Shown here piece after piece: positions 32,701 through 63,185 of a DNA stretch of 64,000 nt; the first letter of the stretch is position 1; the number at the start of each line of letters is the position of its first letter. A program made the position numbers and the translations under genes. This DNA is from a virus, in the IMG/VR virus record IMGVR_UViG_3300048597_000634, positions 62,001 through 126,000 of that record; one strand, given 5' to 3'. A model generated the notes under the pieces. It was not told where the DNA came from, did no database searches, and was given only the letters and a program-made list of their open reading frames with translations.

Positions 32701-35700
32701 TGCAGTCTCAGTCGGTGGCTGCTGACGTTAGTGGATCATTTTACTTAATGCCTGCTATGGCATCTGAGTTTAATAACGCTAAGTCCTTAGGTCCCCTATT
32801 AGCCGCCGCCCAGCGTAACCCTAACCTGACTGACTCTAGGGCAGTAGCCCTATACCGAGCCACGTTGATGCGTAAGTCCAGGGCTACGTATAAGAACAAT
32901 ATTAGTGCAGGTGAGTCTGCGGCTATTTCTAGCCCTACATTACAGATTGCCATTGGGCGCCGCTCAGATGAAGTAAGACGTCTTGCTTGGCAAACCGGCG
33001 AGGGTCATATGTTAGACCTGTTGACCACTATGGCTGCCGCAGGTCGGATTAAAACAGAGGCCACTACCAACTTTATTAGTAATGCCGGCGCTACTATATA
33101 TGACTTTGTGGGTAATAACTTCAGAATCCAACCTACTAACATCGCTGGTAATCCTGTTAGGTTTAGTATCCAGACTAATGCTGAGTTCGCCCGGGCTATG
33201 TGGACTATGGCTAAGGGCAGCAATACTCAGACTGACATCAACACGATGTTATATGACTCTGAGCGGGTACAAGACGCTGGGCCCAATCCTGTTACAGGGT
33301 ACTTCGGCAATATCATGAGTTACGCCTTTGGTACCTTTTATGACCGTACCTTAGATGAGTATGGCCCGAGCTTCCACAATATATTGCCCGCCGCCGCCCT
33401 AGCATTTAGTGCAGTGGGCTTAAGCGCCATGTTGACCGGTACGGCGATAACTTCGGTTGTACAGGGTATTGGGGCGCTAGGTGCCTTACAGGTGTATGGA
33501 ACGCTGGCCGACTCTGCTCGTAACTTAGACCAAGCGAGACAGAACGTCACTCATGTTATACAAAGCACTTCCTATGGCATCGGGCGCGATAACAAATTAA
33601 TGAAGCAAGTTGGCTCAGTGATGTCTGAGATGGATATGACCGGGGGCGTAACCGAGGAAGCCATTACTGCCTTAAATAGTGTTTTTGGTAAACGCAACCA
33701 AGTTGGTAGTTTAGGTAAGTTCAGTAACTCCCTAGCGGGTAAGGCCAGCCAACTAGCCTCTATGTCTGCTAGTAATACTAACGATATAACGGAGGTACTG
33801 CGGCAGATTAAAGCGGACTTCAACGATAGCGTTGAGGGTCTTCAGAAAGGCTTCAACATGTCAAACGACGCTTTCAAAGAGATGTTAGAGGGCATATTTG
33901 ATGCGACTGATAGCACTTTAGTAGCCGGCATCAATAATATTCTTCGCAACATGCCTCTGGAAGAAACCCGCCGACAAGAGATAGAAATCCTATTGTTGCA
34001 GCATATGCAGAATAATATGGACCCCTTGCGTAATACGTCGGGGTTTAAGCTGACTGATGCCGCCCCTAGCGATAAGTCTCGTATTGTTTATAACTCTCTA
34101 TCTGACAAAAAAACCATGAGCGCTAGCTCTGCGTTTATCAATACAGTATTAGACCAAGAAGGGTACTCTGGACTATTTAAACGGTCTACGGGAGGGCTAT
34201 TCCGGGCATCTTTTGCCATGTTTGATATGAAAGCTGCTTATGAGTTTGCCAGCTTTGCGGCGGCTTCCTCTGACCCTATGGATGAATTAGAACGCCGTCG
34301 GTCCTCTTATGCTGCCGCTGCCAGTCTATTCCAAACATTCGGGATGATTATCCCAGGTCAGGTAGTATTAGGCACCTTAGCTAAGAACCCGACCTTAGCT
34401 GTAGCAGCTATGGTCGCTGCGGTAGGTATTGGTAGTGTTGCCTATGCCAACAAGGGTTTTCGTAAAAAGGTCAGTAACTTCTTCAAGCCGAAGTTTAAGT
34501 GGGCAGACCGTAACATAATTAAGCCTACTATTAGGTCTATTGCCAGTGCTTTAGACGCAGTGGGAAGTATTGGCGCTGTCCAAACTATGCTATCTCCAGT
34601 ACGGGTTATTACCTCAGGCTTAGATCCTATGTTTACGAATATGCGGCGTAGGGCGGCGCGCATACCTGGGGTTAACTTCATAGCTGACATGTTCATCCCT
34701 GAGACCAAAGAATCGTTCTACGACCGGTGGTCTGAGCAGACACCCACTATGACCGCCTATGGTCCCCGCATGGAGTTATACACCCGTGCAGAGATAGAAC
34801 AAGACCGTAAGAATAGGATTGAATCTCGGCGACGCCGGGGCGGTCAATTAAACGCTGGCATTAGTGTTGAGTTAATGTCTGGATTCCTACAAGGTAGACC
34901 TGATTCTACTGAATTAGGTCGTATGAGGTTAGAGCGTTTAACCAAGGGCGCTGGGCGGGTAGCCAGTGAGCACATAGGGTATAGCTATGTAAGCCCCCTA
35001 ATTCATTTAGCGGTTAAGCGGCGTCAACAAGAGATAGACTCCTATGGCAATGCTCTACTTGGCCCGTTGGTTCCTGAGACTAGGGGGTCGGCGGCGCCCA
35101 TATTGTCTTTGTCAACTAGTGTTATGCGTTATAGCTTGCACAGCACTGGCAGTTTAATTCAAGCGCCTATGGATGTGGCAGGTAAGGGGGCGGCCATAAC
35201 CATAAAGTCTTTTGCTTGGCTGAATGACGCCTTTACTAAGGTGAAAGACAGTAAGTTAGTATTTGGTCTTATTGGGGGTGCTAAGGCAGCTCCTAATAAC
35301 CAAATGTTTACCTGGGCTGCCGCCGGCGTGATCGGCTCATCTATCTTGGCAGACCGTTTAGGTTGGACTCAAAAAGAAGATAAGAAATGGCAAACTGCCG
35401 GGCTGGTAATTGGGGCAGGCGCTACAGCGGCGGTGGCCAGACCCTATGCCGGCGCCGCCTTTAATATGCTAGCTGACCAAGATAACTTTGCCGGTAAGAA
35501 TATTCGTAAGCTACGTCGTATAAACATGAATGCCATTACTGACCTGGCGGTTAAGGTCGGTATGGGCGGTCTTAAATGGACTAAGGGGTTATTTAGTCAC
35601 GCATCACAGTGGGCAAGGACTCAATCATGGTCTCGCATAGCGGCTAATACCGGGTATAGTGGCGCTGCTATTGTCGGGGCAACAATGTTATTAAGCCCGG

Positions 35701-38700
35701 CGGTGGATGACTTTCTGGGTTGGGGTGAAGACCCTAAGAAAGAGAATGACCGTAAATTATTAGACCGTCGTAGGATGACGGCTATTGGAGTTACTGCAGG
35801 GGTGTCACTATTAGCTAGATTAGGAGCCACTTGGAAGCCTAACCTTGCAGGCTCAGCAGTTAACAAAGTAGGGGGCTCTGTCACACGATTAGCCACTTTT
35901 GGGGTTAGTACCTTAGCAGTGTTTAAGCTTAGTAAGGTAGTGATGGCTAATCAAATCACTGGGTTTGGATTTAACACTGCTTTTAACGTCGGCTATGGTT
36001 TGCTTAACTTAGAAGACGACGCACAAGGTCGGGCTAAAGCACAGGCCTATGAAGCTACCACGAGCACCATTGCTTTTGGTTTGACTGTGGGTTATGCATA
36101 TAACGTCTATGGTAAGGAATTAATAAATAAAGCTAGGGGTATAGCCCCGACGCATGTAGGCTGGGCTGCTTTCCGCCATAACGTTAAGTCTGGGCTTAAG
36201 AATATATTCACACCAGTTACCTTTGGAGCACCTTATTGGGGTCAGATAAGGGGTCTATTAGGGGGTGGTTGGAATGCGGTCTATAACTCGAATAATTTGG
36301 CTGGGCGGGCGCTAAGACCTACAGGTAGGTATTTAGGAATGGCTAAGGACATGCTGCCTAAACTACCCCCCGGTTGGAATGAGCCTGTTAATAAGTTCTT
36401 TGGTCGTAAGATTAATTGGTTAATCAACGCCCAGAATGCGGCTAACCCAACTAAGGCACAATACGCAGCCTTCGATGCTGAGCAGATAGGATTACGGGAA
36501 CCTGCCCGAAAATTAGCCATTAAGAAGTGGGGTACTGTAGCTAGCCATGCGGCGAAATTAACCCCATTGATTATGGATACGGCTACCATAGCCGCCGCCC
36601 ACCACCGATACACTAAAGTAGACCCTAAAGATCACCTTGGTAACTACAAGGAAGCCTACCGCGCATATTACCAGTCGTCGGCTATGACTGCGGTCAGTAG
36701 CGTGCTTAGTGCCATTAGTGGTGGTGATAAGAAAGTAGGTCTGGTTAGCACTTTGTTAACTACCACTCAAGTTAGTGATATTGCCGGACGTATGGCAGAA
36801 GAGTGGGCTACTAAAGACTTGTATTCAGGGCGGTTATTAACTGAACAACGTGCCGGTCAAGATAGTTACTTTAGTCCTGAGTCAGCTGCTGGCGTAGGAG
36901 CTTTAACGCTTAGTGCTGCAGCCACTGCGTCTTACTACAAAGTAGGGGTCTTTAAGTCAGCTCGTTGGGATAAGACCGCCAACTTTATGGCAACTCATGC
37001 TGGTCAAGTAGCCCAAACAGCCATTACTGCCTATAACTGGCAAGATACCTGGCGTGCTGGTCGGCAAAGATATAGTGGTACTAATCCTAACTACATTGCC
37101 GCACAGCGCAGTAGTGATTTGGGCAAAGGGGCATTATACGCGGCGGCTATGTTGTCCTTGGCGTCTAAGAATCCAAGTTCTGGAGGTAAGAATCTGGCGT
37201 TAAGGACTGCTGGGGTGGTAACCTTTACTGCTGCTGCTATGGCAATGGATAACACTGAGTCTTATTTTGCTAAGCAACATACCTTAGCTGTCCGAGAAGC
37301 AGGCATTAGGGATGTATATGTTAAGAACTTAATCCAACGGGAAGCCGCCGAATCTACCCTTGGTTATGGTGCTGCTGGGGCGGCTATAGCTGGTCTAACC
37401 GTAGCCTCGTTATTGGCTTTTAAAGGCAAAGGTACTCCTTTCTGGAGTAAGGCGTCTTATGCACTACTAAGTGCCGCTACTGGTGGTTCAGCGGCTAGTT
37501 TCTTCGGACATCAGTGGCAATTAAATAAGGGTATCCAGAAGTATAAGGATGGTATTACTCCTGAGCAATATTTAGAACGGCAGCGGTGGATAGACAATGG
37601 TGCGTATACCCCAGATAGTTGGCGCAACACTGACCAGAACCGAATGCAATGGTTGTTATGGAATACTGATTCGGTTAATGCCCGTAATCAGGTTCGCCGT
37701 GGGCGAACGGGTGCGGCTATAGGATTAGGTAACTTGAGTAGTAGCTATGTGACTCCTGATATGATAGCCGCCGCCCAAGATCGGGAGTTAAGAGCACGTT
37801 ATGGCCAGCCTATTACCTTTACCAGTACCGTTCAGTTTGTCGGTGGGGCTACTATACTTGCTGCTAATACTTTCCGATATGAGAAGGGTTTAGGCGCGGT
37901 AGGGGTTACATTTAGGCAACATATTAAGCCTACAGCCACTTTGTTTGATACGGTAGCGGGCTCTGCTAAAGATATGAGTCTTTGGCAGAAAGGTAAGTCT
38001 ATTGGTGGGTCTACACTAAACGCAGGATTCCAAGCATTACCCCTAATGTCGTATTACTTTGCTGCTCAAGGTGCTAAGGAGCAAATCACTAAGCATTCTG
38101 GACGTTATAGTTCTGGACGTATGACTACCGCCCAATACTTACAGGCTACTGCTTTGAGTAGAAGGGCGTATATGGCTCGTAGTGAGGCGCTATATGACGC
38201 CTATTTGCCGGGTTCGTCTAGTATAATGCGGTCGATTATAAGCGGCGTGGCTTTTGGTGCAGCCAAGGGTGCCTTATCAGGCGTCTTAGACTCCAAAGCC
38301 ATTGATGATGAGCGTCGGTGGATTGAGCGTAATAAAGAGGGGCTAAACCTTAGTAGTCTGAACCTAGCTAAAGCCAACCGTGCGTCCAGAAAATATCTAA
38401 CTGGTGGTAGTGGTACTGATAAGGTAGTCGGATTGGCTACCGGTGTAACCACTTTAAGTATCAACCTGTCAGCTGGTTTCATCACTGGTGGTCCTGTTGG
38501 TATATTCACTGGACTAATCACTAGTATTGTGCCAGGGTTACAGAACCAAGCCATCGCTAAGGCGAATATATCTAGACATAGGGCGCGCAATGTATTGCTA
38601 GAGAAAGGTAATGAAGTAGGGCATGAAGGGATATTAGACGACCTGAGTGGTATTGGAGCTGATGGTTATGGAATGATGGCGCTTAACATGGGGATTAGCT

Positions 38701-41700
38701 CGGGGGCGAGTTATTTAGTTAAGCGTATTCGTGAATACCATAAAACAAAGAAAGCCAAAGAAGCTTTAGAGAGTAAGCGACCTGGTGCTTCTCCTGATGT
38801 AATTAATAATACGTCAGATGATGGTGATGTTGGGCGCGGTGGCGGGACGGATGACGCTGGTGGCGACGGAGTCCTTAGCCCCAGACCCGGCGGGGGTGGG
38901 GACGGTGGTAGTGTAGGTCCTGCACCTACTTTGAAAGATGCTGATGATAGAGCGTCTACTAGAGCAGTTTTAGACACCAGTAATACTTCTATGTCTACTG
39001 AAGAAGTGAAGGCGGTCATGTCTAGAGGTAATGTTTCTGTAGAGCAGTATGAAGGTAAGTCTAAGTCTCTACAAGAGTACCATTCCGAGAAGATAGAAAT
39101 TTACGATAAGAAGATAAATGCGTTAAATACTGAGAGATCAGCGTTGTCAGCAGAAATAGACGGCTTAATTACAGAAAGGCTAAGGTTAGATGACGCGTAT
39201 CAAAACTCGTCGGTTACCGGCGGTAAAGAGGTGTATGAAGCTATAGAAGCGTCACATAATGCCTCATTGAAGCAGTTAGACGATAAGTTAAAGCAAGTCG
39301 ACCAGAGAATAGTAGAGATTGACCGTACAATAAACGCCCATAGTAAAGGGAGGGTCGCGTCTCAAACTATCATTAGTGAGTTGGGTACTGCGTATACTAT
39401 CAGGCACCAGCAGTTTAATATGCCAGCGCCCGCACCCGACCTGGTAATAACTCCACAACCTTCTCCGACAGTTGTCGGCCCCCAGCCTACCCTAGAGCCG
39501 CCTGTAAGCCGTGGCGGAACTACAGTAGCTCAACCTGTTATGCGTGGGCGGAATGCTATTGTCACTGATCTTGGTGACGGTACTGTGAGAAAGACATTAG
39601 TGCCTGACGGACCTAACCCACAGATAGCTAACAATATTCAAGTTGAGGCTGCGATACAACGTAAAATGGCCATCTTTGGCGTATCTCCAGACGTAAGGTC
39701 AGTTAACGTAGATTCTTTTGTCATGCGTAAAGTTACAGGGCACGCAGTAAGTCCTCTAACTGGAGAGGCTCTAACAGCTTCTAGACTAATAGCGGCTAGA
39801 AAGTTAGCTTTATTACATAGTCTGGGTGTTGTACACGGTGATGTACACTCTGGCAACATACTTACATCACCAGACGGCACTAAAGCTACGGTTTTAGATT
39901 ACGGTTACTCTAGATTAGCCAGTGTAGAAGAAGCTTACTCTATGCTGAGCGACAATGTAACCGTAGATAGACTCAAGAATAATGAATTTACGTCTAGGCC
40001 TATGGCTGACGGGTCACTGGGACCTCGTACAGTTGGGTCTGACCTGTCTGGGCTAATCAATATGTCTGGGTCTGACTCTGAGGAAGTATTGAAAGTATAT
40101 AAAAGTGAAATGGACCGTCACCGGCGTATGCCTGATAGTGACAATGTCTTTAAACTAAATGAGTTGGGACTACCTCCTGAAATAGAAGCCCAGGTCAAAT
40201 GGACAAACTCATCCGAGATAACCCTGAATAATGGTAACTTGGCATCTAGGGGTGCTGACATTGTTGAACCTATCATTGCACAACCCCAACAATCTACTCA
40301 GGCTAGTAGACCTATTACTAGTGCCCAAGAGATAATTAATAGATCGGGCGGTGGGTCTTCTGTGCCTACTACACCTCAACCCTCAATAGAATCTCATGTA
40401 AAGCTTGGTAGCGGGTCTACATCCTCGGCACCCAACCCAGTTATCTCCCAACCAGAACTCTTGGATACTGATAATAAAGTGGTCGGCGCCCCTGTAGAGC
40501 CTGACCAGATTGTAGCTAAGGGCGGTGCTAATATGGTGAGTCCAATGCCATCACAAAATCTTGGTACCACTACTAACCCCTTACCTAACGTATCCAACTA
40601 CGATAACAATGTAGTATCTAATCCTTTAGACCAGACACCTAGTGGTTTAAACAAGCAGCAGCCTGGCGGTTACATAAACCTAGGCTCAGACTCTATCAGA
40701 CCTAATGACCCAGTCACTATCATAAGTCGGTCTGGGCGCGGTCTCGTAGGTAATGCCATAGACTCCGTTAAAGAAGCAGATTGGCAAACCCGCGGCACCT
40801 ACGCTAGCAACACTGTTAGCGCTGGTATGGCTACCTTTAACCTCTACCGAGGTGTCACTACCTTAGCTAAGAAAAACACCACAGGCTTTGAAAAGTCCTA
40901 CGGGTTTGAATACTTAAGTCAATCTGGCGCTGGCTACGCTACTACTTACCTCACCATTAAAGGCGGGCTTAAAGCGACTAAGGCGCTGCCTTACCTAAAC
41001 TATGCTAGTGATGCTATCTCATTAGCTTATGGGAGTCATCGTCTTAATACAGCTACTACTGAAGCTGAATATATTAAAGCTAAGGGGGATGTAGGCGGCG
41101 CCATTGGTGGGTTGGCCGGTAATGTTGCTGGGCAGGGTATTGGTTGGCTGGTTGGCGGTGCTATTGGTGCAGGTATTGGTGCTGTCATCGGCTTCTTTGG
41201 TGGTTTTGGTATAGGTGCCGGTGTGGGTGCCGCCGCAGGATTTAAGATAGGCTCGTCTATAGGGTCTATAGTCGGTTCTATCGCTGGCTCTATGTACGGG
41301 GAGCAAGTAGGTAGAGACTGGGTCACTAAGAATAAGTATGGTGCCGGCGATGCCGTAGAAGTGTTCGACCTTACTGGTAAATATAAGAAGACTCAGGAGG
41401 ATAAGGAGCAGCGTAGAGCAGCGTCCATGGCTAGACACGATGGCGGACCTAAAGTGTCTTATGTCAAACCGAAGGCTACTACTGGTACTAAAGCTACTGC
41501 GGTTAAGAGAGTAACCAAACCCATGAGACCTGGGTCTAATACGTCAAAGAATGGGGGAACTCGGTCTGGTGTTGATGGGCCAACGAATAATATAGTGTCG
41601 TTTAACCCGCTTAGTAACGTACCTGGGTTGGACTTGTTCTTTCCTAAACCAGCGGCGGCTAGTGATGTTATACCCACAAGCGCAAAGGTTTATACGGAAC

Positions 41701-44700
41701 CTACCCTTCCTAAAGATATCAAGAATGTAGACGTTGATGTAACATCACGGTCTTTAGAATCTAAGACCCAGGAAGAAAAGGAAGAGATAGAAAATAAGCA
41801 GTGGTATGAAGGGCTCTTTGAAGGGCTGGCAGCAATGGGTCGGAATATGACCAATACCATCAACAAGGCAGCTGAGTATGTAGGTGATTTAATTGGCGAC
41901 GCCTGGAATTTTGTGACGGGTGGGGGCGCTGACGCTACCTTTGCCGATGGTAAGTTTAGCGGAAGTATGGCTCCGTTGTTTAACCTCATTCATAAATATG
42001 AGTCGCCTGGCGCCGGCTTTGATGCGTTAAATCCTTCTACAACGGGTACTGCTGTGTATGGTAAACCTCTAACTGAGACTACTATCGGAGAGATTATGGA
42101 TAGGTCTCCACGAGGTGGCGGACGCGCCAGTGGTATGTTTCAGTTTATGCCTTGGATTAATGGCAAAGAAGGGACGCTATATAGCGCCATGAAAGCTGCA
42201 GGTTATACCAGAGACACAGTCTTTACTGCCGAAGTACAGACTAATATGGCCATTAAATTTTTGCCTAAGCACAGACCTGAATTATGGGCGTATTTAACAG
42301 GTAAGTCTGACAATATCAACGCAGCTATGGATGACTTTGCTCGTGAGTGGGCTGCATTCCCTAACTCTAGAGATACAGGTGCTTATTCAGGACAACGTTC
42401 TGCTGGATTTGAAGAAACCAAGCAGGCATTAATAGAAACTCGTAAGTTAGTTATGGCTTCTGGCTCTGCGGAGGCAGGGTTTCAAACTGGAGCTGCTAGA
42501 GTAGGGGGCGTAGTTAAGACTAACGTGAAGACTATTCGTGATGGGGGTGGCACTCCTTATCACATTGATATGATGTTTGACCGAAGCACGTCATGGGAAC
42601 AAAGGGTTCAGGTTTTTGACCAACTAGCCGCTGGTTATGCTGCAATGGGTCGTCGCATTGAGTTTAGTAATAGTGCTGTTTCTGGTCTTGTATACCGAAC
42701 TAATCTTACCCAGAAGCAGAAAATCGACATGTTAAAGCGTGTAGAGTCTGCTCATAGTAATAGAAAAGGTGGTAGCGGTCGTGCCGCCATGGACTTTTTT
42801 GTCCCGCAAGAAGGTCATGCTAGATGGACAGGCGGACCAGCCACTAGCGGCTCAGGGGCTAACGTTGAGTATTTATTACCGGTCATTGAAGGTGGTTATT
42901 ATACTGTGGGTGCCAAAGGTCGTTCAGGTCAACATATTCAAGCTTTTGATGCTAGTGGTAAGAAGATATATGAGTTCTTTCACGGTGGTGGTGGTCAGCA
43001 AGGACGATTTAATTTTTCTGGTGCTGGTAGCGGCGGCTCTATGCCACAAGCAACACAACAAAATAGACCGCCCCATCCTCTCACTAGAGGTGAAAAGAAA
43101 GTTACTAGTGGCACTACCGGAAAAGGTCAATCAGGCAGTGTTACCCACTTTAAATATGAAGAATACACAGGCAAACGGGTAAGCGTTGGTAACAACCAAA
43201 CTATGGCAGAGCCCGCTGCCATCGCATTTAAGAAAATGCAAGAAGCCGCCGCTAAAGAAGGCGTAACGTTACAAGCTCGTAGTGGCTTCAGGTCAGTTAA
43301 AGAACAAGGAGAGGTCTTTAAACGAGGCCTAGATAGAAGAGAAGGCAATGTTTACGAAAATACTTTATATATTGCCCCTGCCGGATATTCAGAGCATGCC
43401 ACGGGTTACGCCATCGATATTACGGGTACTCTCAGTGAAGGTCTAACTGCTGCTGTAGCTGATACCGCCGCCGGCAAATGGTTGGCAGCTAACTCTGCCA
43501 AGTTCGGCTATCAAATGTCTTTCCCTAAAGGAAATGCCGACGGCGTCACTTATGAGCCTTGGCACTTTAGGTTTATGGGTGATTACTACGAAGGTAGTGA
43601 ACCTGATACGTCTACTGACGGAGTTTATGTACCCAGTGAGGGTGGTAGTATAACTCGACAACGACCCCAACGACGAAAAGTAACTTCCTGGGCTGAGCGG
43701 GAACGTCGTGCACAAGAACGCATTAAGTCTGGTCAGGTTAGGCGTGAAGTTAATATCGGAACACCAGCTAAAAATAATGGTGTACGTCAAGGCGGTGCCA
43801 AGGTACAGACTAAAGCTGAAGAGCTGCCCAAGAATATTCAGACTAATGATGTACCTGCCATGTCTAATGACCGTCGTGGTGTTAGTGGCTCTAGCGGGGG
43901 CTCGGGCGGAGGTGGTGGCGCCGGGGGCGGTAGTTCTGTAATAAGTGGACCCGTTTACACTCAGGGAGATTTAGGGTCTCCGGGAGCATTCCACTTTGAC
44001 ATCAAACGAGTCGAAGGCGGGTTTTATGAACGTGATTACCTAGACAATTATGTCCAAGTAAATGGTAAGCCTATAGGCACAGGTATTACAGTTAAGGGTG
44101 GAGAGTACGGAGCCCCTAGGTCTTACGGTGGTCATGGTGGCTGGGACTATGCCTTTGGGGATAAGAATGCCGGGCTTAGTCTTGTTAATGGTGCCCGCTT
44201 AATCAGCGTTACACCCACTAAGACCTATGGTGATAAGCTAATATTCCAGCTTCCTACTGGAGAACAGTTCGCTATTATCCATGGACGAGCTACTGCCTTG
44301 GGTAAAGATTCCGCTGGAGCGGAAGGAGCATATGCTCAAACTGATGGCTCGGTCAGTTTGGCTAGTGGCGGTGGGGGCCGTGGCGGTTACAGATATATGC
44401 AGCCGCCTCGTAGAAAAGTCACTTCCTGGGCTGAGCGAGAACGTCGGGCTCAGGAACGTATTAGATCTGGTCAAGTTGTAAGGCAGTCTTACGTTACTAA
44501 CCCAAGTAGAACCCGTAATAACCAAGTGAGACCCGGCGGCAACATTACCCAAAGCGGCGGCGGTTTTGGTTGGTTAAAGCTACCTTCCTTCTTTAGACCG
44601 CAATCTACTAACCAAGACAAAGTTTCAGCGATATATGAACCTGATGCTAAACGTAATGCTCGCCAGAAAGACTTACTCAAGACTATTCCTTCTAACCAGA

Positions 44701-45116
44701 AAGACTTAGACGTAGATGAAATCCTTGACACTAAGGTTACCCAGGCTTCAGATGAGGCTATGTCTAATGCAGAGATTATCGGTAATGTAATCGCTGAGGC
44801 GGCGGCCAAAGCCTATAAACAAAAACAAGAAGCCACCCCAGAAAAAGCCGTTCATCATATTACTAACGTCCAACGTCCGGCGGAGACTGCCCTTAACGTT
44901 AACAGCTACTCGCGGGCCATCACCAGTAACATTACCCGTGCTACTAAAACACAAACTGTTTATCAACCGGACAACGACCAAAATGTTATCTTGGTCAGCT
45001 CTCAAGTAGACCACACTATGGTAAATGTCAATGTGGCTAACAGTGGAATTAAATCGCCGTGCGGGTGGCAGATGGCGGGTAAGAAACAAAGAGTACAGGG
45101 ACCTTGTGTTGCCTAA
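26772..45116 (+). CDS. Giant tape-measure protein (6,114 aa) with kinase-like and cell-wall-cutting domains
   Basis: One unbroken 18.3-kb gene. N-terminal 1,200 residues are soluble and helical. Roughly 1,250-3,950 contain dozens of Ala/Gly-rich hydrophobic segments typical of tape measures. About 4,000-4,160 is a charged coiled-coil-like stretch (SEKIEIYDKKINALNTERSA). A protein-kinase-like domain follows (4,257-4,440; K4274, E4292, H4355-G-D4357, N4362, D4376-Y-G). A glycine zipper lies at 4,775-4,843. Then come a lysozyme/transglycosylase-like domain (catalytic-type E5077), a VanY-like DD-carboxypeptidase (H5542, H5598) and an M23-like peptidase (H5788, D5792, H5837). Tape measures set tail length, and those with wall hydrolases help injection. 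By the usual rule of about 0.15 nm per residue, even the first 4,250 residues would span several hundred nm. ATG at 26772; the stop overlaps the integrase stop. Confidence 0.85.
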   Translation: MAGTFGYTSVNNDHQLKFNVPDRFSASRTGQVRPESGSNPYVVYSETHTVFNLEQSLSRFKRGTVETDNFLVTAPPDSFLGWALGKTESQVLAKQGVTRVQQSEFSFGANKSKIHVPAETQGIGRLRSFLERVNLNGEPPLVSGAGVDPNVPKEIEQKLAHFKITTGDIDAAALGQYEGITDGNNSPVEAPTKVAVQTTAMYGNYQFHGTWGIVGGALSFKRDSSGITDLGRGAYTQGYMDTSIHIEDPRYLRMVDDWSKDKYATRGVFRSEDYSKEGQEKLEGVKLLRNVSIHEEAIRETAAYIEALSPRSATAERLSEGKQITNKDLENIRKEYAEDLEVIQSDMQAAGAMYYMSGPAMGYNETNLSDNTVAGIRRQQVKQTLDQIETLKQLGIKPVIHTDINRMDIDTGSKRRLLEEAYVVQTHTFFGMSQQQAHHNVSGLVIPNLDIDSQAGSRLKEAGLASESGLAGFISLGTARLIGSFAYEMGIQVDLDAAPDSYVDAIMGSIGRTLNVGAVYRQRKDAAYQGPSGADLSSFYKPTYRDVRSGNFQEIGLLPVMPNEMPDDFFEYYGGLSTRIYSDRYQALYGTKATGMQGHVLERLDAKLSAPGFGMGLNQLFRQDDLYTPGQGLAGFLATSIGRVFDTVSGHYTMQRIKKQHDGDLSGSLGEYQQKIIEQEHFRAIEQRGFFENLFNTLTTTIADTSLSMASYFGVTHAYSIAKAQIEDAGSKHILDVVTGAVGEGKAHTSILMLTGGHSKLFEEANQLHELMDKVGGFDSIKSASSLGDYLLAVQDFTSGQDVTIAEGATDSVFGWYKKKKDVEGFMRTPTGPGAAPVSALGEQQLFDFLDDIYNVKPGLDDDLASLVKKKLGQANTNSIDPAALRKAYAKALEEMGITINLPTSGNAHVSGSVELARSLDNANSGAIHMPDAVGFRNIRAVRRLDSANLTNMFLPFLDNAVDLSTEASKEGYLKAREQLVDLARAKPVLTFDSSVQGEHTNKILHYGYDRLTDLARTFDDLAQYLPAYPLLWIKPIRDAFNRYELAQGKTKDDILGTRRSFRDLIGPGFTGLLSLQGEVSRTIGSIAQVGVGKYVTNTLEVFKLQGQASVLEAKIANSFKESYKFIAQVHGAANNVNFDDVLQAFIDRLQDPKKSGINQQDFEELAKLHSEISLKINKTPGLKYSTGHNELGAPGEDSYAGLRKFLFSAGAVLIADRIIDHFFIKPQGVDLGDSLMSHIFGTVSPEVEGREEDAKVLAGYSQNYSHTAPAIFKYPAATAGYAIGGLVFPSVYHQASHLKYWTSATKGKQFTSDQVELVTQVASGITQGLQGITPNATKEQLAEAFAKGSANAFAGSNKLRFGYAGAFVGASLALLATQAITSVVASTLEPLVALGDTAFRGRWHDPRKGLELDPIKGSAAAIFAKAHRQGAARAAALSQRAEARGGKAGDYMDYTSRGSMVVAWLLSSSMTVSAQQPGRLFYPFATQIAAPFYQFAMVGKLDPSSNQITMQSGLQLFPLSGVGFMVPSMFNPATKYTPSIAEQFLINQLTDLTPGMNQRALIGDDSDVEQRKEAYSLLKASSGILSLALGSGLNPTFDYRPVMFIGGLTALQSAEQVLGKSVGRLKPDSALYKELKNYETVYSIASMGLNVTDKLTRGAFSLSLTGVNYLTHSITAFLGRGELSLFKAGPAARKLMPFYLSAMLVAGMLRPGQTTTEHQSDHIGSLIENLTEGNTFGAVRLEQDHLTNYVLATAIGSAGFGGALTASGAFENVADWANEAGTGYIGLKKQEMYKTYLEHLGKIGVSVDDAADFRKQLMVSIKRGENVTTLLSQVNRQQLPLLQSGAARLGMASRVLAPILLGSFVAAQFLSLTDFYDHSNPVSYLLRGLTDTGRGAQMTYEQKAMLSNLGIKGARYQPKNVGEAVSNVGDYLLRSVFFMGNPSKSMGTYQDAPSPFLGLGGPFGVSGQQDMMKSYMQSQSVAADVSGSFYLMPAMASEFNNAKSLGPLLAAAQRNPNLTDSRAVALYRATLMRKSRATYKNNISAGESAAISSPTLQIAIGRRSDEVRRLAWQTGEGHMLDLLTTMAAAGRIKTEATTNFISNAGATIYDFVGNNFRIQPTNIAGNPVRFSIQTNAEFARAMWTMAKGSNTQTDINTMLYDSERVQDAGPNPVTGYFGNIMSYAFGTFYDRTLDEYGPSFHNILPAAALAFSAVGLSAMLTGTAITSVVQGIGALGALQVYGTLADSARNLDQARQNVTHVIQSTSYGIGRDNKLMKQVGSVMSEMDMTGGVTEEAITALNSVFGKRNQVGSLGKFSNSLAGKASQLASMSASNTNDITEVLRQIKADFNDSVEGLQKGFNMSNDAFKEMLEGIFDATDSTLVAGINNILRNMPLEETRRQEIEILLLQHMQNNMDPLRNTSGFKLTDAAPSDKSRIVYNSLSDKKTMSASSAFINTVLDQEGYSGLFKRSTGGLFRASFAMFDMKAAYEFASFAAASSDPMDELERRRSSYAAAASLFQTFGMIIPGQVVLGTLAKNPTLAVAAMVAAVGIGSVAYANKGFRKKVSNFFKPKFKWADRNIIKPTIRSIASALDAVGSIGAVQTMLSPVRVITSGLDPMFTNMRRRAARIPGVNFIADMFIPETKESFYDRWSEQTPTMTAYGPRMELYTRAEIEQDRKNRIESRRRRGGQLNAGISVELMSGFLQGRPDSTELGRMRLERLTKGAGRVASEHIGYSYVSPLIHLAVKRRQQEIDSYGNALLGPLVPETRGSAAPILSLSTSVMRYSLHSTGSLIQAPMDVAGKGAAITIKSFAWLNDAFTKVKDSKLVFGLIGGAKAAPNNQMFTWAAAGVIGSSILADRLGWTQKEDKKWQTAGLVIGAGATAAVARPYAGAAFNMLADQDNFAGKNIRKLRRINMNAITDLAVKVGMGGLKWTKGLFSHASQWARTQSWSRIAANTGYSGAAIVGATMLLSPAVDDFLGWGEDPKKENDRKLLDRRRMTAIGVTAGVSLLARLGATWKPNLAGSAVNKVGGSVTRLATFGVSTLAVFKLSKVVMANQITGFGFNTAFNVGYGLLNLEDDAQGRAKAQAYEATTSTIAFGLTVGYAYNVYGKELINKARGIAPTHVGWAAFRHNVKSGLKNIFTPVTFGAPYWGQIRGLLGGGWNAVYNSNNLAGRALRPTGRYLGMAKDMLPKLPPGWNEPVNKFFGRKINWLINAQNAANPTKAQYAAFDAEQIGLREPARKLAIKKWGTVASHAAKLTPLIMDTATIAAAHHRYTKVDPKDHLGNYKEAYRAYYQSSAMTAVSSVLSAISGGDKKVGLVSTLLTTTQVSDIAGRMAEEWATKDLYSGRLLTEQRAGQDSYFSPESAAGVGALTLSAAATASYYKVGVFKSARWDKTANFMATHAGQVAQTAITAYNWQDTWRAGRQRYSGTNPNYIAAQRSSDLGKGALYAAAMLSLASKNPSSGGKNLALRTAGVVTFTAAAMAMDNTESYFAKQHTLAVREAGIRDVYVKNLIQREAAESTLGYGAAGAAIAGLTVASLLAFKGKGTPFWSKASYALLSAATGGSAASFFGHQWQLNKGIQKYKDGITPEQYLERQRWIDNGAYTPDSWRNTDQNRMQWLLWNTDSVNARNQVRRGRTGAAIGLGNLSSSYVTPDMIAAAQDRELRARYGQPITFTSTVQFVGGATILAANTFRYEKGLGAVGVTFRQHIKPTATLFDTVAGSAKDMSLWQKGKSIGGSTLNAGFQALPLMSYYFAAQGAKEQITKHSGRYSSGRMTTAQYLQATALSRRAYMARSEALYDAYLPGSSSIMRSIISGVAFGAAKGALSGVLDSKAIDDERRWIERNKEGLNLSSLNLAKANRASRKYLTGGSGTDKVVGLATGVTTLSINLSAGFITGGPVGIFTGLITSIVPGLQNQAIAKANISRHRARNVLLEKGNEVGHEGILDDLSGIGADGYGMMALNMGISSGASYLVKRIREYHKTKKAKEALESKRPGASPDVINNTSDDGDVGRGGGTDDAGGDGVLSPRPGGGGDGGSVGPAPTLKDADDRASTRAVLDTSNTSMSTEEVKAVMSRGNVSVEQYEGKSKSLQEYHSEKIEIYDKKINALNTERSALSAEIDGLITERLRLDDAYQNSSVTGGKEVYEAIEASHNASLKQLDDKLKQVDQRIVEIDRTINAHSKGRVASQTIISELGTAYTIRHQQFNMPAPAPDLVITPQPSPTVVGPQPTLEPPVSRGGTTVAQPVMRGRNAIVTDLGDGTVRKTLVPDGPNPQIANNIQVEAAIQRKMAIFGVSPDVRSVNVDSFVMRKVTGHAVSPLTGEALTASRLIAARKLALLHSLGVVHGDVHSGNILTSPDGTKATVLDYGYSRLASVEEAYSMLSDNVTVDRLKNNEFTSRPMADGSLGPRTVGSDLSGLINMSGSDSEEVLKVYKSEMDRHRRMPDSDNVFKLNELGLPPEIEAQVKWTNSSEITLNNGNLASRGADIVEPIIAQPQQSTQASRPITSAQEIINRSGGGSSVPTTPQPSIESHVKLGSGSTSSAPNPVISQPELLDTDNKVVGAPVEPDQIVAKGGANMVSPMPSQNLGTTTNPLPNVSNYDNNVVSNPLDQTPSGLNKQQPGGYINLGSDSIRPNDPVTIISRSGRGLVGNAIDSVKEADWQTRGTYASNTVSAGMATFNLYRGVTTLAKKNTTGFEKSYGFEYLSQSGAGYATTYLTIKGGLKATKALPYLNYASDAISLAYGSHRLNTATTEAEYIKAKGDVGGAIGGLAGNVAGQGIGWLVGGAIGAGIGAVIGFFGGFGIGAGVGAAAGFKIGSSIGSIVGSIAGSMYGEQVGRDWVTKNKYGAGDAVEVFDLTGKYKKTQEDKEQRRAASMARHDGGPKVSYVKPKATTGTKATAVKRVTKPMRPGSNTSKNGGTRSGVDGPTNNIVSFNPLSNVPGLDLFFPKPAAASDVIPTSAKVYTEPTLPKDIKNVDVDVTSRSLESKTQEEKEEIENKQWYEGLFEGLAAMGRNMTNTINKAAEYVGDLIGDAWNFVTGGGADATFADGKFSGSMAPLFNLIHKYESPGAGFDALNPSTTGTAVYGKPLTETTIGEIMDRSPRGGGRASGMFQFMPWINGKEGTLYSAMKAAGYTRDTVFTAEVQTNMAIKFLPKHRPELWAYLTGKSDNINAAMDDFAREWAAFPNSRDTGAYSGQRSAGFEETKQALIETRKLVMASGSAEAGFQTGAARVGGVVKTNVKTIRDGGGTPYHIDMMFDRSTSWEQRVQVFDQLAAGYAAMGRRIEFSNSAVSGLVYRTNLTQKQKIDMLKRVESAHSNRKGGSGRAAMDFFVPQEGHARWTGGPATSGSGANVEYLLPVIEGGYYTVGAKGRSGQHIQAFDASGKKIYEFFHGGGGQQGRFNFSGAGSGGSMPQATQQNRPPHPLTRGEKKVTSGTTGKGQSGSVTHFKYEEYTGKRVSVGNNQTMAEPAAIAFKKMQEAAAKEGVTLQARSGFRSVKEQGEVFKRGLDRREGNVYENTLYIAPAGYSEHATGYAIDITGTLSEGLTAAVADTAAGKWLAANSAKFGYQMSFPKGNADGVTYEPWHFRFMGDYYEGSEPDTSTDGVYVPSEGGSITRQRPQRRKVTSWAERERRAQERIKSGQVRREVNIGTPAKNNGVRQGGAKVQTKAEELPKNIQTNDVPAMSNDRRGVSGSSGGSGGGGGAGGGSSVISGPVYTQGDLGSPGAFHFDIKRVEGGFYERDYLDNYVQVNGKPIGTGITVKGGEYGAPRSYGGHGGWDYAFGDKNAGLSLVNGARLISVTPTKTYGDKLIFQLPTGEQFAIIHGRATALGKDSAGAEGAYAQTDGSVSLASGGGGRGGYRYMQPPRRKVTSWAERERRAQERIRSGQVVRQSYVTNPSRTRNNQVRPGGNITQSGGGFGWLKLPSFFRPQSTNQDKVSAIYEPDAKRNARQKDLLKTIPSNQKDLDVDEILDTKVTQASDEAMSNAEIIGNVIAEAAAKAYKQKQEATPEKAVHHITNVQRPAETALNVNSYSRAITSNITRATKTQTVYQPDNDQNVILVSSQVDHTMVNVNVANSGIKSPCGWQMAGKKQRVQGPCVA
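39540..40090 (+). other. Protein-kinase-like domain inside the tape measure
   Basis: Residues about 4,257-4,440. Hallmarks in order: Gly-rich strand (DLGDGTVRK) with K4274, a helix glutamate E4292, the catalytic loop HGDVHSGN (4355-4362) and the metal-binding DYG at 4376-4378 in place of DFG. HGDxHxxN is the loop of the atypical kinase families (RIO, ABC1, APH, Bud32). The Lys, Glu, catalytic-loop Asp and DYG Asp are all kept, so ATP binding and catalysis look possible. Sequence inspection only; no profile search done. Confidence 0.7.
41094..41300 (+). other. Glycine-zipper segment in the tape measure
   Basis: Residues about 4,775-4,843 are almost continuous G-x-x-x-G repeats with Ala, Ile and Val (IGGLAGN...GAIGAGIGAVIG). 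Such zippers insert into membranes; here it could form a channel or anchor in the inner membrane during injection. Confidence 0.7.
41949..42460 (+). other. Lysozyme/transglycosylase-like domain in the tape measure
   Basis: Residues about 5,060-5,230. The pattern NLIHKYES with E5077 matches the catalytic Glu-Ser of lytic transglycosylase and GH24/SLT-type folds. It is followed by a GxFQFMP-type segment (ASGMFQFMPW) and a Q-x-x-MAIKFL helix. It likely cuts glycan strands at injection. Fold family not resolved further. Confidence 0.65.
43150..43600 (+). other. VanY-like (M15) peptidase domain in the tape measure
   Basis: Residues about 5,460-5,610. Shows SGFRSVKEQ, then SEHATGYAIDI with H5542 and the Asp seven residues on, then EPWHFRFMG with H5598. 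These are the zinc ligands of M15 DD-carboxypeptidases, which cut peptide cross-links. Confidence 0.85.
43671..43742 (+). repeat. Linker repeat, copy 1, after the VanY domain
   Basis: Codes RRKVTSWAERERRAQERIKS, a charged helix. A second copy with one Lys/Arg exchange lies at 44409-44480 after the M23-like domain. The DNA differs at many third positions, so the duplication is old and kept by selection. Confidence 0.85.
43960..44345 (+). other. M23-like peptidase domain in the tape measure
   Basis: Residues about 5,730-5,860. GGHGGWDYAFG gives H5788 and D5792 (the H-x-x-x-D of LytM-type endopeptidases), and FAIIHGRA gives H5837, matching the third ligand. The first His of the usual H-x-H pair is not seen, so activity is uncertain. 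Confidence 0.55.
44409..44480 (+). repeat. Linker repeat, copy 2, after the M23-like domain
   Basis: Partner of 43671-43742; codes RRKVTSWAERERRAQERIRS. It follows a hydrolase domain just as copy 1 does, so a 'domain plus linker' unit was probably duplicated. Confidence 0.85.
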
Positions 45117-47048: not shown

Positions 47049-47076
47049 TCATCTTTTCAATATAGATGCAGTCTTT

Positions 47077-47131
47077 AACCTGCGACCGTCCGCTTAGAAG
47101 GCGGATGCTCTATCCACTGAGCTACGCACCC
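47077..47131 (-). other. attP: attP core candidate: 5' 55 nt of a tRNA-Arg(UCU) gene
   Basis: Read on the minus strand it starts GGGTGCGTAGCTCAGTGG and gives a full 7-base acceptor half, D arm, anticodon stem TCCGC/GCGGA with loop CTTCTAA (anticodon TCT at 47096-47098), variable loop and the start of the T arm (GCAGGTT). After that the match to a tRNA stops: no CCTGC, no CGCACCC partner for the acceptor stem. A functional tRNA is therefore not made from this copy. A tRNA fragment of this length beside an integrase is the usual sign of an attachment site. Here the phage carries the 5' part, so integration would rebuild the host gene with a phage 5' end and promoter. Confidence 0.75.
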
Positions 47132-60947: not shown

Positions 60948-61697
60948 TCAGCTTTTGATGTGCTTTTTACATAGCTCGAAGTAGTGTTCTCTTTCTGCTA
61001 AACCGTTAAGACCGCCGTTGATAATGCGGGTAATGATTTTAACGGTGGCGCCGCGGTCGGCGGTATTGTTCAGCTTATTTTGTTGCCAGAACCAACCGGC
61101 GGAGCAGAAGGGGTATTTAGCCGCGGTGTAAGAGGCGCCTTGTACGATTACTTGAGCATCGCCTATGTCGTTAGCGAAGCGTTGGTAATTATAGCGACCT
61201 GTCAGCATTAGACCGCCGCTGCCTTTGAACTTAGGTCCATCGCCAGGGCGATTATTACCAAGGTTTTGTCTACCCTCGTAGGCTTCTCCAGAGGCTAATT
61301 CAAGCCACCATTGACCGCCGCCGGTTTCATGAGCTACTTGAGACAGAAAATGCCAGGCGCGGGGTCCTGGCACGATGTCATACTTCTTAAGGCAGCGGTT
61401 AAGGTCTTCGAGTTGAGTAACGGTTAACTGTCTGCCGAAGATATTGGTTATCTGGTCATTGGTTACCCATAGTGTTTTTTCTTTAGCGTTGTTGTAGTGG
61501 TGTTCTAGGTTAGCCAGGGATTCATCGGCGTATTTATCGAGGTTAACCTCATGGGCTAGTCGTTTGAATTGAGCCCAGGCAGCGTGGGTTTTGGGACCTG
61601 GGTCACCGTCTATGGGACCTGGGTCGATGCCGATGGTTTTGAGCTTTTGTTGGATAGAGCGGATGAGGTTAGTGTCTGCGGCGGTTAGTGGTTGCAT
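60948..61697 (-). CDS. Endolysin: peptidoglycan-binding plus GH19 muramidase/chitinase-type domain
   Basis: 249 residues. Residues 1-45 are a peptidoglycan-binding repeat (IRSIQQKLKTIGIDPG, then DGDPGPKTHAAWAQF). Residues about 80-249 are a GH19 lysozyme-like domain: FLSQVAHETGG with catalytic E124, GLMLTGRYNYQRFA, SAGWFWQQNKLN, and RIINGGLNGLAER, all standard family strings. It cuts the wall at lysis. It lacks a signal peptide, so it needs a holin or other export. Unusually, it sits in the replication strand, two bases after the HNH gene. Confidence 0.9.
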   Translation of the reverse strand: MQPLTAADTNLIRSIQQKLKTIGIDPGPIDGDPGPKTHAAWAQFKRLAHEVNLDKYADESLANLEHHYNNAKEKTLWVTNDQITNIFGRQLTVTQLEDLNRCLKKYDIVPGPRAWHFLSQVAHETGGGQWWLELASGEAYEGRQNLGNNRPGDGPKFKGSGGLMLTGRYNYQRFANDIGDAQVIVQGASYTAAKYPFCSAGWFWQQNKLNNTADRGATVKIITRIINGGLNGLAEREHYFELCKKHIKS

Positions 61698-61699
61698 GA

Positions 61700-62374
61700 C
61701 TATGTGTTATAGCGAAGATGTGGGTTCTTTTCGTGTAGGCACTTGAAGATCCAAGAAGTCATCCAATTAGGCATGTGGGTGCGGACTAAGGTGTTGTATA
61801 GCTTTTTAACCGGCAGACCTTTTTGGATGATACCTAGAGCCAGCTTAACTTCATGGCCGCTACGAGAGAGACTAACTGCCGCCAAGGTTTGTTGGAGAAT
61901 GTTAGCGAGGAAGTGGATTGGATTGGTAATTGTTTCGCCTTGTTTGTTAAAGGGCGTGGGCTCTTCTGACTTAGGTCGTCCTATCAATGGAGTATTGGTG
62001 GCAGAGCTTACTATGATGTGGTCTTGTTTGCTGAGGTAAGTTAGGTTTTCTGGGCGATTATCATCAGTAACACCATTGATGTGATGTACTTCGACGACGC
62101 CTTCTTCAGCCTTGAAACCATTTGAGAGAGCTTTATACCCACCGCAGGCGTAGAAAGCGACTATTTGGGAGACGCCGACTATTTCACCGTTGTTCGTGGT
62201 GTGAAAATCAAAGAAACCTGAGCGGGTTAAGGTGCGAAAGACCGACTTATTATCTGCACGTTTAGCGAAGAGTCTGCCAGACTTTTTGCACTTGATGGTT
62301 TTAATGACATTGAGAATGGCGCCTAATCGGAGTTTAGCCCGTTCGGCGCCCATGCTAGCATTCTTATTACTCAT
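61700..62374 (-). CDS. HNH endonuclease directly downstream of the HEARO-like RNA
   Basis: 224 residues from the ATG at 62374; a GTG at 62431 lies in the RNA and would add 19 residues. HNH core EVHHINGVTDDNRPENL (about residues 95-110), preceded by a FYACGGYKALSNG segment typical of phage HNH proteins. The C-terminal 110 residues are helical and basic, perhaps DNA-binding. No RuvC motifs, bridge helix or P1 interaction domain is seen, so this is not IscB or IsrB. It may use the RNA, or may have landed beside it. Confidence 0.75.
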   Translation of the reverse strand: MSNKNASMGAERAKLRLGAILNVIKTIKCKKSGRLFAKRADNKSVFRTLTRSGFFDFHTTNNGEIVGVSQIVAFYACGGYKALSNGFKAEEGVVEVHHINGVTDDNRPENLTYLSKQDHIIVSSATNTPLIGRPKSEEPTPFNKQGETITNPIHFLANILQQTLAAVSLSRSGHEVKLALGIIQKGLPVKKLYNTLVRTHMPNWMTSWIFKCLHEKNPHLRYNT

Positions 62375-62402
62375 AGGCTTAGGGATGAATGGTAGACACA
62401 CT

Positions 62403-62660
62403 GATCCTATCGAACACTCAGATAGAACCACGGTTTAAACATTCAGCCCCTACGGCTTTTTATGCACAGATCTTGGGGTGCGCCGGCCTATCATCCCTTG
62501 TCTCTAGGATCAGTTCCGATGCTATCTGTCCCGGCGAATTAAGCCCGTAGGCCTACCCTCTTCCGTATGCTGATTAATGGAAGGTCCCACGCCCGGACAC
62601 ATAGGGTTGTGGTATCGACATCCGGCCCATGTCCCCAAGAGGATGGTGTCCGGCTTGCCG
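62403..62660 (-). ncRNA. HEARO-like structured RNA (omega-RNA family of IscB/IsrB)
   Basis: A 240-bp G+C-rich island without a supported ORF in either strand, unlike everything around it. Read on the minus strand it begins GGCAAGCCGGACACC. Long-range helices I can pair: CCGGACAC (62646-62653) with GTGTCCGG (62593-62600); CTTCC/GGAAG (62560-62583); GCCTACGGGCTT (62541-62552) with AAGC-CGTAGG (62446-62458); CGCCGG (62531-62536) with CCGGCG (62481-62486); and a final GGTTCTATC hairpin (62403-62429). The order of the conserved strings (AGCCGGACACC, GTCCGGGCG, CGCCGGG, AGGCCGG, GTAGGGGCTGAA, CCGTGGTTCTATC) matches my memory of HEARO. No search was run. Guide bases in this family lie at the 5' end, here just past 62660. 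Confidence 0.6.
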
Positions 62661-62675
62661 ATAAAAATAATCATA

Positions 62676-63185
62676 TCACAGCTTACCTAATCTTTCTAAA
62701 CAATCTCTACAAACGCCGCAATGGCGGCAGTCTACTTTGCTGGATAGTATTTGTAAGTCATTATTAGAGCCGAGGTCAACCGTTACAAGACTACCGGAGA
62801 AGCCACGTTCAATCTCTTTATAGCGGGACGCTATAGTTAGTCTTTTATTCTCTATTAAGGCTTTTTTCCTAGCTTCTTTCTGCTCTAGAGACTCTAAGCG
62901 TAGTCGAACGCCTTTCGTCGGTAAAGCTATGAGGTTGACAGTGGTTGGGAGAACATGTTTGAGATAGTTAAAAACCTGCGGTATTTCTTTAACACGGAAC
63001 ATATACGCAGATCTGGGGCTTTGTACGAAGCGATAGTTGTTTAAGCCGGGCTCTTTTGCTACCCACTGGCTCCGTTTGTTAATCCAGTCAACTCTAATAT
63101 AGCGGGTAGATACTATGTGTGGTCCTGGTTTGTGCACCTTCTCACGAGGTCGTCGCTCTCTCTTAGGTTTAGTTTTTCTCGCCAT
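62676..63185 (-). CDS. Basic protein with C-terminal Cys cluster
   Basis: 169 residues, ATG preceded by GAGGAG and overlapping the stop of the chaperone gene (TAATG). Basic N-terminus (KTKPKRERRPREK), and a C-terminal CRHCGVCRDCLERLG zinc-knuckle-like motif. Possibly a nucleic-acid-binding regulator. Its stop lies 15 bases before the HEARO-like RNA starts. No family recognised. Confidence 0.6.
   Translation of the reverse strand: MARKTKPKRERRPREKVHKPGPHIVSTRYIRVDWINKRSQWVAKEPGLNNYRFVQSPRSAYMFRVKEIPQVFNYLKHVLPTTVNLIALPTKGVRLRLESLEQKEARKKALIENKRLTIASRYKEIERGFSGSLVTVDLGSNNDLQILSSKVDCRHCGVCRDCLERLGKL

Follow-up and report, generated by a model that had tools for sequence, protein, structure and literature searches.

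Large structured RNAs fronting nuclease genes have been found to be guide RNAs, as in the HEARO/IscB systems, or regulators. A non-coding island directly upstream of a small HNH gene in a 205.5-kb IMG/VR phage record raises the question of what such an RNA may do in a phage. The window analysed here, 64,000 nucleotides long, comprises bases 62001-126000 of this record, and the source phage is cyanophage-like, judging from the neighbour genes (Kyanoviridae Gp96 family). In the original prediction, the island was taken for a HEARO-like RNA; the observation of the island is real, but its reading as HEARO is wrong. As a recurrent genetic association, the pairing of a small HNH protein with a structured RNA of its own finds support in the sequence comparison, and the repeated occurrence of RNAs before the HNH genes of cyanophages suggests an undescribed RNA-plus-nuclease mobile unit.

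The Island and Its Neighbours

The genes and signals around the island, in minus-strand order and in window coordinates, are the following.

62676-63185, minus strand: gene of 169 aa, function not assigned, first in the order and 5' of the island
62670..62698, minus strand: promoter-like site TAGAAA-17-TATGAT, with the extended -10 TGTGATATGAT at 62670-62680 and the -35-like TAGAAA at 17 bases
62375..62663, minus strand: leader-1, predicted non-coding structured RNA; 80% identical to its counterpart in phage L002, no codon rhythm, fold kept, no Rfam match
61700-62374, minus strand: HNH_3 endonuclease gene (HNH-1), 224 aa, ATG at 62374, directly 3' of the island
62018..62095, minus strand: HNH_3 core EVHHINGVTDDNRPENLTYLSKQDH within HNH-1 (PF13392, residues 94-119, E 6.9e-8)
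60948-61697, minus strand: endolysin gene, after the HNH_3 gene

The island lies between complete genes. The gap at 62432-62675 (244 nt) contains no ORF of at least 75 aa, and the G+C content of the island is 52% versus 46% for the window, the highest among the window's four gaps of at least 180 nt; the G+C-rich non-coding stretch of about 240 bp in the original prediction is thus confirmed. The HNH-only protein of about 224 residues described as following it at once corresponds to the HNH_3 ORF, which carries neither RuvC nor RRXRR. Since the minus strand encodes both the island RNA and the HNH gene, the RNA reads from 62663 to 62375, its 5' end at about 62663 being placed from the -10 site and its 3' end set at the base preceding the HNH start codon. 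The promoter-like site TGTGNTATNAT occurs once in the 205.5-kb record, directly before the island. An in-frame GTG is present at 62431, upstream of the HNH ATG at 62374, and the intervening stretch has no third-position bias. A small protein encoded in the island was considered and rejected: although both phages have an open frame of about 47 codons, its ATG is not conserved and the substitutions follow no codon rhythm.

Elsewhere in the window, an ORF of 6114 codons (26772-45116, plus strand) probably encodes a giant phage structural protein, and a tRNA recognised by Rfam (47063-47131, minus strand, 38.8 bits) is absent from the ARAGORN output.

Conservation and Fold of Leader-1

One relative, L002 (IMGVR_UViG_3300048597_000133), carries the same four genes together with the island. 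The non-coding divergence of leader-1 from this relative is 20%, compared with 49-76% at the four-fold sites of the HNH gene and of the genes around it, and it falls to 4% (96% identity) in the first 48 nt, which include one 35-nt identical run. Leader-1 substitutions are spread evenly over the codon positions (19/17/21), in contrast to those of the HNH gene (46/22/116). The pattern points to purifying selection on a non-coding sequence.

The consensus fold of leader-1 reaches -74.9 kcal/mol against -62.3 +/- 4.5 for a null in which the same substitutions of this two-sequence alignment were relocated at random, and only 2 of 300 nulls were as good. The compensatory changes that the original prediction called for among related phages appear as structure-preserving substitutions relative to L002. 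The folding energy alone is unexceptional (z -1.4; 18 of 200 shuffles as good), and the count of conserved single helices is not significant (9 versus 6.5 +/- 2.7), only the whole-fold test being so. It is the comparison, with its low divergence relative to four-fold sites and its structure-preserving substitutions, that sets the island apart from chance. The predicted helices are listed below.

62614..62662, minus strand: 5' hairpin H1, AUCGGCR...YGUCGAU with inner CCGG/CCGG; A-U to G-C double change at 62656/62620; holds the 35-nt identical run
62448..62606, minus strand: long-range helix YCCUAUG (62606-62600) / CGUAGGR (62454-62448), enclosing the core; C-G to U-A double change
62530..62597, minus strand: inner helix UCCGG (62597-62593) / CCGGG (62534-62530); one double change
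62583-62579/62564-62560, minus strand: hairpin CUUYC/GRAAG inside the inner helix; C-G to U-A double change
62402..62430, minus strand: last hairpin before the HNH gene, UGGUUCUAUC...GAUAGRAUCA; double change in the loop-closing pair and U-G to U-A in the stem

The long-range helices put forward originally are all present in the sequence, but one of them, CCGGACAC/GTGTCCGG, is not conserved, since L002 has GTGCCTGG, which leaves one mismatch and one G-U pair. The helix GCCTACGGGCTT/AAGCCGTAGG is almost invariant and hence uninformative on covariation; its 3' strand has an alternative partner in YCCTATG/CGTAGGR, with the C-G to U-A change. In the RNA, the long-range helix YCCUAUG/CGUAGGR accordingly competes for one 3' strand with GCCUACGGGCUU/AAGCCGUAGG, the almost invariant pairing.

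The HNH Protein and the Leaders of Its Cyanophage Relatives

The domain search of HNH-1 returned PF13392 only, with no RRXRR (E<=1) and no RuvC, and the same family matched 13 of the 13 HNH family members scanned. The structure model (pLDDT 72, with low confidence in the C-terminal third) has no significant match in the PDB, and its neighbours, by weak matches, are phage HNH and homing endonucleases. The protein is most simply viewed as a mob-type, free-standing homing endonuclease, probably nicking. A search for an empty site for HNH-1 beside the endolysin gene found none.

In a set of 50,697 phage records, the HNH protein has relatives in cyanophages only; viral contigs added further ones, and the genome contig collection (genome_contigs) contained none. 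Thirteen distinct loci were compared: the window, L002, MaMV (L004), Ma-LMM01 (L006), My-WqHQDG (L007), L034, L023, L025, L039, L042 and L109-L111, the last three being the paralogous HNH-2 copies of this phage (L109), of L023's phage (L110) and of L002's phage (L111). A leader precedes the HNH gene in all 13 lineages, covering about 290-690 nt between promoter and start and containing no substantial ORFs, whereas for generic HNH genes retrieved alongside as controls the upstream gap is mostly short. Fold z scores against shuffles ranged from -1.1 to -7.6 in the ten leaders tested, none of them positive. An extended -10 motif, T[AG]TGNTATN[AC]T, picked after inspecting the leaders, is present in 10 of the 13 lineages at 306-615 nt ahead of the HNH start codon, with 0.5 expected from shuffles. 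In L007, L034, L042 and L110, the leader closes with a terminator-like hairpin on the correct strand, 38-55 nt ahead of the HNH start. In MaMV, the leader is placed as follows:

OP394178, 15.4-16.6 kb: MaMV leader locus, with the promoter-like site TGTGCTATAAT where the RNA would start

The proposed order, in which a structured RNA is immediately followed by an HNH-only gene, holds in 13 of 13 lineages, but the HEARO identity attached to it does not. Covariance models built on leader-1 (R1) and on the leader of HNH-2 (R2) detect their own lineage only. As cross-detection between lineages failed, one common RNA family is not established, and what recurs is the anatomy. Rfam scans of the leaders gave chance-level matches, tRNA or CRISPR repeats only, and no Rfam family describes the leaders of this cyanophage HNH family.

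The leaders of MaMV and its relatives are nearly identical, some of them with a TnpB element inserted. Between My-WqHQDG and L034, the promoter and the final hairpin are common, the rest of the approximately 600-nt leader shows about 48% identity, which is near random, and the HNH genes are 77% identical in DNA; such a pattern may reflect very fast leader evolution or exchange.

Several leader regions contain further elements. Three CRISPR-DR5-like 37-nt repeats (31.4 bits, cut-off 40) lie before the HNH gene gp051 of Ma-LMM01 (L006 2581-2779; NC_008562 35763-35961). Very long near-perfect hairpins of 20 bp and more occur in the leaders of L039 (2650-2900) and L042 (2700-2860), both phages being A+T-rich. 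An insertion sequence with TnpB (OrfB_IS605, Cas12f1-like_TNB) is found in the leader region of L010 (897-2488) and L019 (897-2487), in opposite orientations. A sharp break in similarity in L010, L013 and L019, considered as a possible element boundary, turned out to be an inserted TnpB element.

The HNH-2 Paralogue and Joint Displacement

The leader of HNH-2, in an alignment of two sequences, is the strongest case. In this phage it lies on the minus strand at about 2041-2447 of L109, and with its counterpart in L002's phage (L111) it is 69% identical over 354 aligned bases. For this pair, the consensus fold reaches -71.0 kcal/mol versus -41.7 +/- 4.5 for the null, and none of 200 nulls was as good (z -6.5), with 13 double compensatory changes and conserved unpaired loops such as GUAAAGCGAUAAA.

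The genomic position of this unit differs between the two phages. In this phage the leader and HNH-2 lie between the MDDEQLL and MPNHII genes, and in L002's phage they precede the MNDEQLL gene, the end of which overlaps with the beginning of the MNPII gene. The block thus stands on opposite sides of the MDDEQLL gene, with the flanking genes intact. Either the leader and HNH-2 block or the neighbour gene has moved; the leader kept its HNH gene either way, and no gene is interrupted. Both points speak for a mobile cassette in an intergenic position rather than for a splicing element.

A Proposed Cis-Acting Leader of a Mobile Cassette

Our analysis computed a conserved fold, a non-coding character, a promoter-like site where the RNA begins in most lineages, a recurrent RNA-then-HNH order and joint displacement in the paralogue. 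The best-supported reading, by analogy with phage homing endonucleases known to be held down by leader structures, is that the island represents a promoter-driven, structured non-coding leader of the HNH gene, which would act in cis and form one mobile cassette with it; we give this reading roughly an even chance. Leader RNA and HNH gene would together constitute a cassette lying between complete genes, and its protein would be a free-standing, homing-type HNH_3 endonuclease, probably nicking. The RNA structure may mainly delay or attenuate expression of the nuclease, as leader RNA structures control expression of the T4 and Aeh1 homing endonucleases (PMC2988022, PMC3014915). The terminator-like hairpins at several leader ends would fit attenuation or the release of a discrete small RNA.

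The free-standing HNH endonucleases of T4-like phages (mobA-mobE; PMC2988022, PMC3014915) share with the locus an intergenic position between complete genes, an own promoter and RNA structure before the start. However, the T4-type leader is one hairpin hiding the ribosome-binding site, whereas the cyanophage leaders are 290-690 nt long and contain many helices, with conserved structure spanning hundreds of nucleotides far from the start codon. The HNH-1 start offers no Shine-Dalgarno sequence to hide, as is the case for most genes of this phage. The last hairpin of leader-1 has no U-run, and the minimum free energy helix beside the HNH start codon in the window is not conserved in L002. These features count against a cis-acting leader, as does the failure of leaders from different lineages to detect each other by covariance model. 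Were the leader only a regulator, it would represent unusually elaborate control of a homing endonuclease together with several undescribed RNA structures.

A Possible Ribonucleoprotein Nuclease or Stand-Alone RNA

Part of the evidence that sits uneasily with a cis-acting leader is what keeps an RNA-protein partnership under consideration: the RNA is far larger than the known hairpins, structured far from the start and reminiscent of a discrete unit in several lineages. In such a partnership, the leader would be a discrete RNA acting in trans, bound by the HNH protein and guiding or scaffolding its nicking, much as HEARO/omega RNA does but with an unrelated, HNH-only protein. We regard it as unlikely. 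The layout corresponds to that of the HEARO/omega RNA of IscB and IsrB (RF02033; PMC9755519), namely a structured, non-coding RNA immediately 5' of a gene for an HNH-containing nuclease, on the same strand, with RNA and gene moving together. The leaders have their own promoter and, in several lineages, a terminator-like end, and the conserved unpaired loops of the HNH-2 leader are also in keeping with a partner protein. On the other hand, leader-1 shows no guide-like variable end between the two phages, whose copies of the island occupy the same site, and its 11-mers are no commoner in its own phage than those of shuffled sequences. The HNH_3 core shows no sign of a known RNA-binding domain, and the C-terminal third of the protein is poorly predicted. 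The broader proposal, that the cyanophage HNH_3 family consists of ribonucleoproteins with a dedicated, promoter-driven upstream RNA and represents a nicking or homing system unrelated to IscB/Cas9 and TnpB/Cas12, seems to us rather improbable. Such RNAs are carried by MaMV and Ma-LMM01, both isolated phages of Microcystis, and by the sequenced Microcoleus phage My-WqHQDG, and with the isolates the choice between a regulator and an RNA-protein nuclease is testable.

The same promoter, together with the terminators of other lineages, would equally suit a small phage RNA that stands alone and only happens to lie beside the HNH gene. This is improbable in view of the RNA-then-HNH order in 13 of 13 lineages, the joint displacement and the mostly short upstream gaps of the control HNH genes.

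Group I Introns and Other Ribozymes

We give a similarly low probability to the reading of the leader as a ribozyme, of a diverged group I type or another kind, or as a decayed intron, with the HNH protein as its homing endonuclease. HNH endonucleases are frequent in phage group I introns (PMC3428280, PMC2988022), and the long-range helix of leader-1 is followed by AAUU, loosely resembling P3-J3/4. The intron-encoded I-PfoP3I of a cyanophage polymerase intron is likewise a cyanophage HNH-type endonuclease adjoining a structured RNA, but the present locus differs from it in having no RF00028 group I core and no interrupted gene (PMC3428280). A group I intron had been named as the alternative that might score higher than HEARO; RF00028 matched neither the island nor any other leader, while it detected four tandem group I introns of the same phage (record positions 145601-146936, minus strand, E down to 4.9e-21). 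In both phages, the ORFs flanking each of the two HNH loci are complete, which leaves no split gene to splice.

The four introns lie within 1.3 kb, outside the window (G000:145601-146936; L097 1-1140), beside a fragment of a family A DNA polymerase. Tandem group I introns also occur in L002's phage (three) and in L025's phage (four).

The HEARO Reading

The possibility that the island is a HEARO (omega RNA) whose IscB or IsrB was lost, suggested by the first impression of the sequence and by the position directly before an HNH gene, is negligible, as RF02033 gave no match on the island at E<=10 and the HNH protein is a member of a distinct family, one always found on its own. The HEARO-like strings of the original prediction do not add up to a match with the Rfam model, and the replacement of a lost IscB is without support. 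With lax filters, cmscan gave only chance-level matches to Rfam families, both on the island and on that of L002. Unlike HEARO and its nucleases (PMC9755519), leader-1 shows no recognisable guide, nor a variable guide-like 5' end between the two phages compared, and the phage protein has no RuvC or RRXRR/PLMP and carries HNH_3 in place of a Zn-ribbon HNH, the Zn-ribbon cysteine pairs being absent.

Two further points concern the relatives of IscB and the reach of the model. IshB proteins are mentioned in PMC12477157. They are HNH-only IscB relatives with a PLMP domain plus HNH. The phage protein resembles IshB in being HNH-only and about 180-220 aa in size, but no PLMP/RRXRR was found in it (E<=1) and its HNH belongs to another Pfam family. 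As a control, RF02033 was found to match a HEARO of the Microcystis phage MaMV-DH01 that has diverged (25.9 bits, under the 83-bit cut-off), which shows that the model can recognise such RNAs in this group of phages. This HEARO-like RNA (L116, OP394178.1 171189-172501, minus strand) lies directly upstream of a gene for a 365-aa RRXRR protein annotated as hypothetical; in the RRXRR control, UWV19826.1 matches PF14239 at 5e-52. RNA and gene are likely to represent an IsrB locus in a Microcystis phage.
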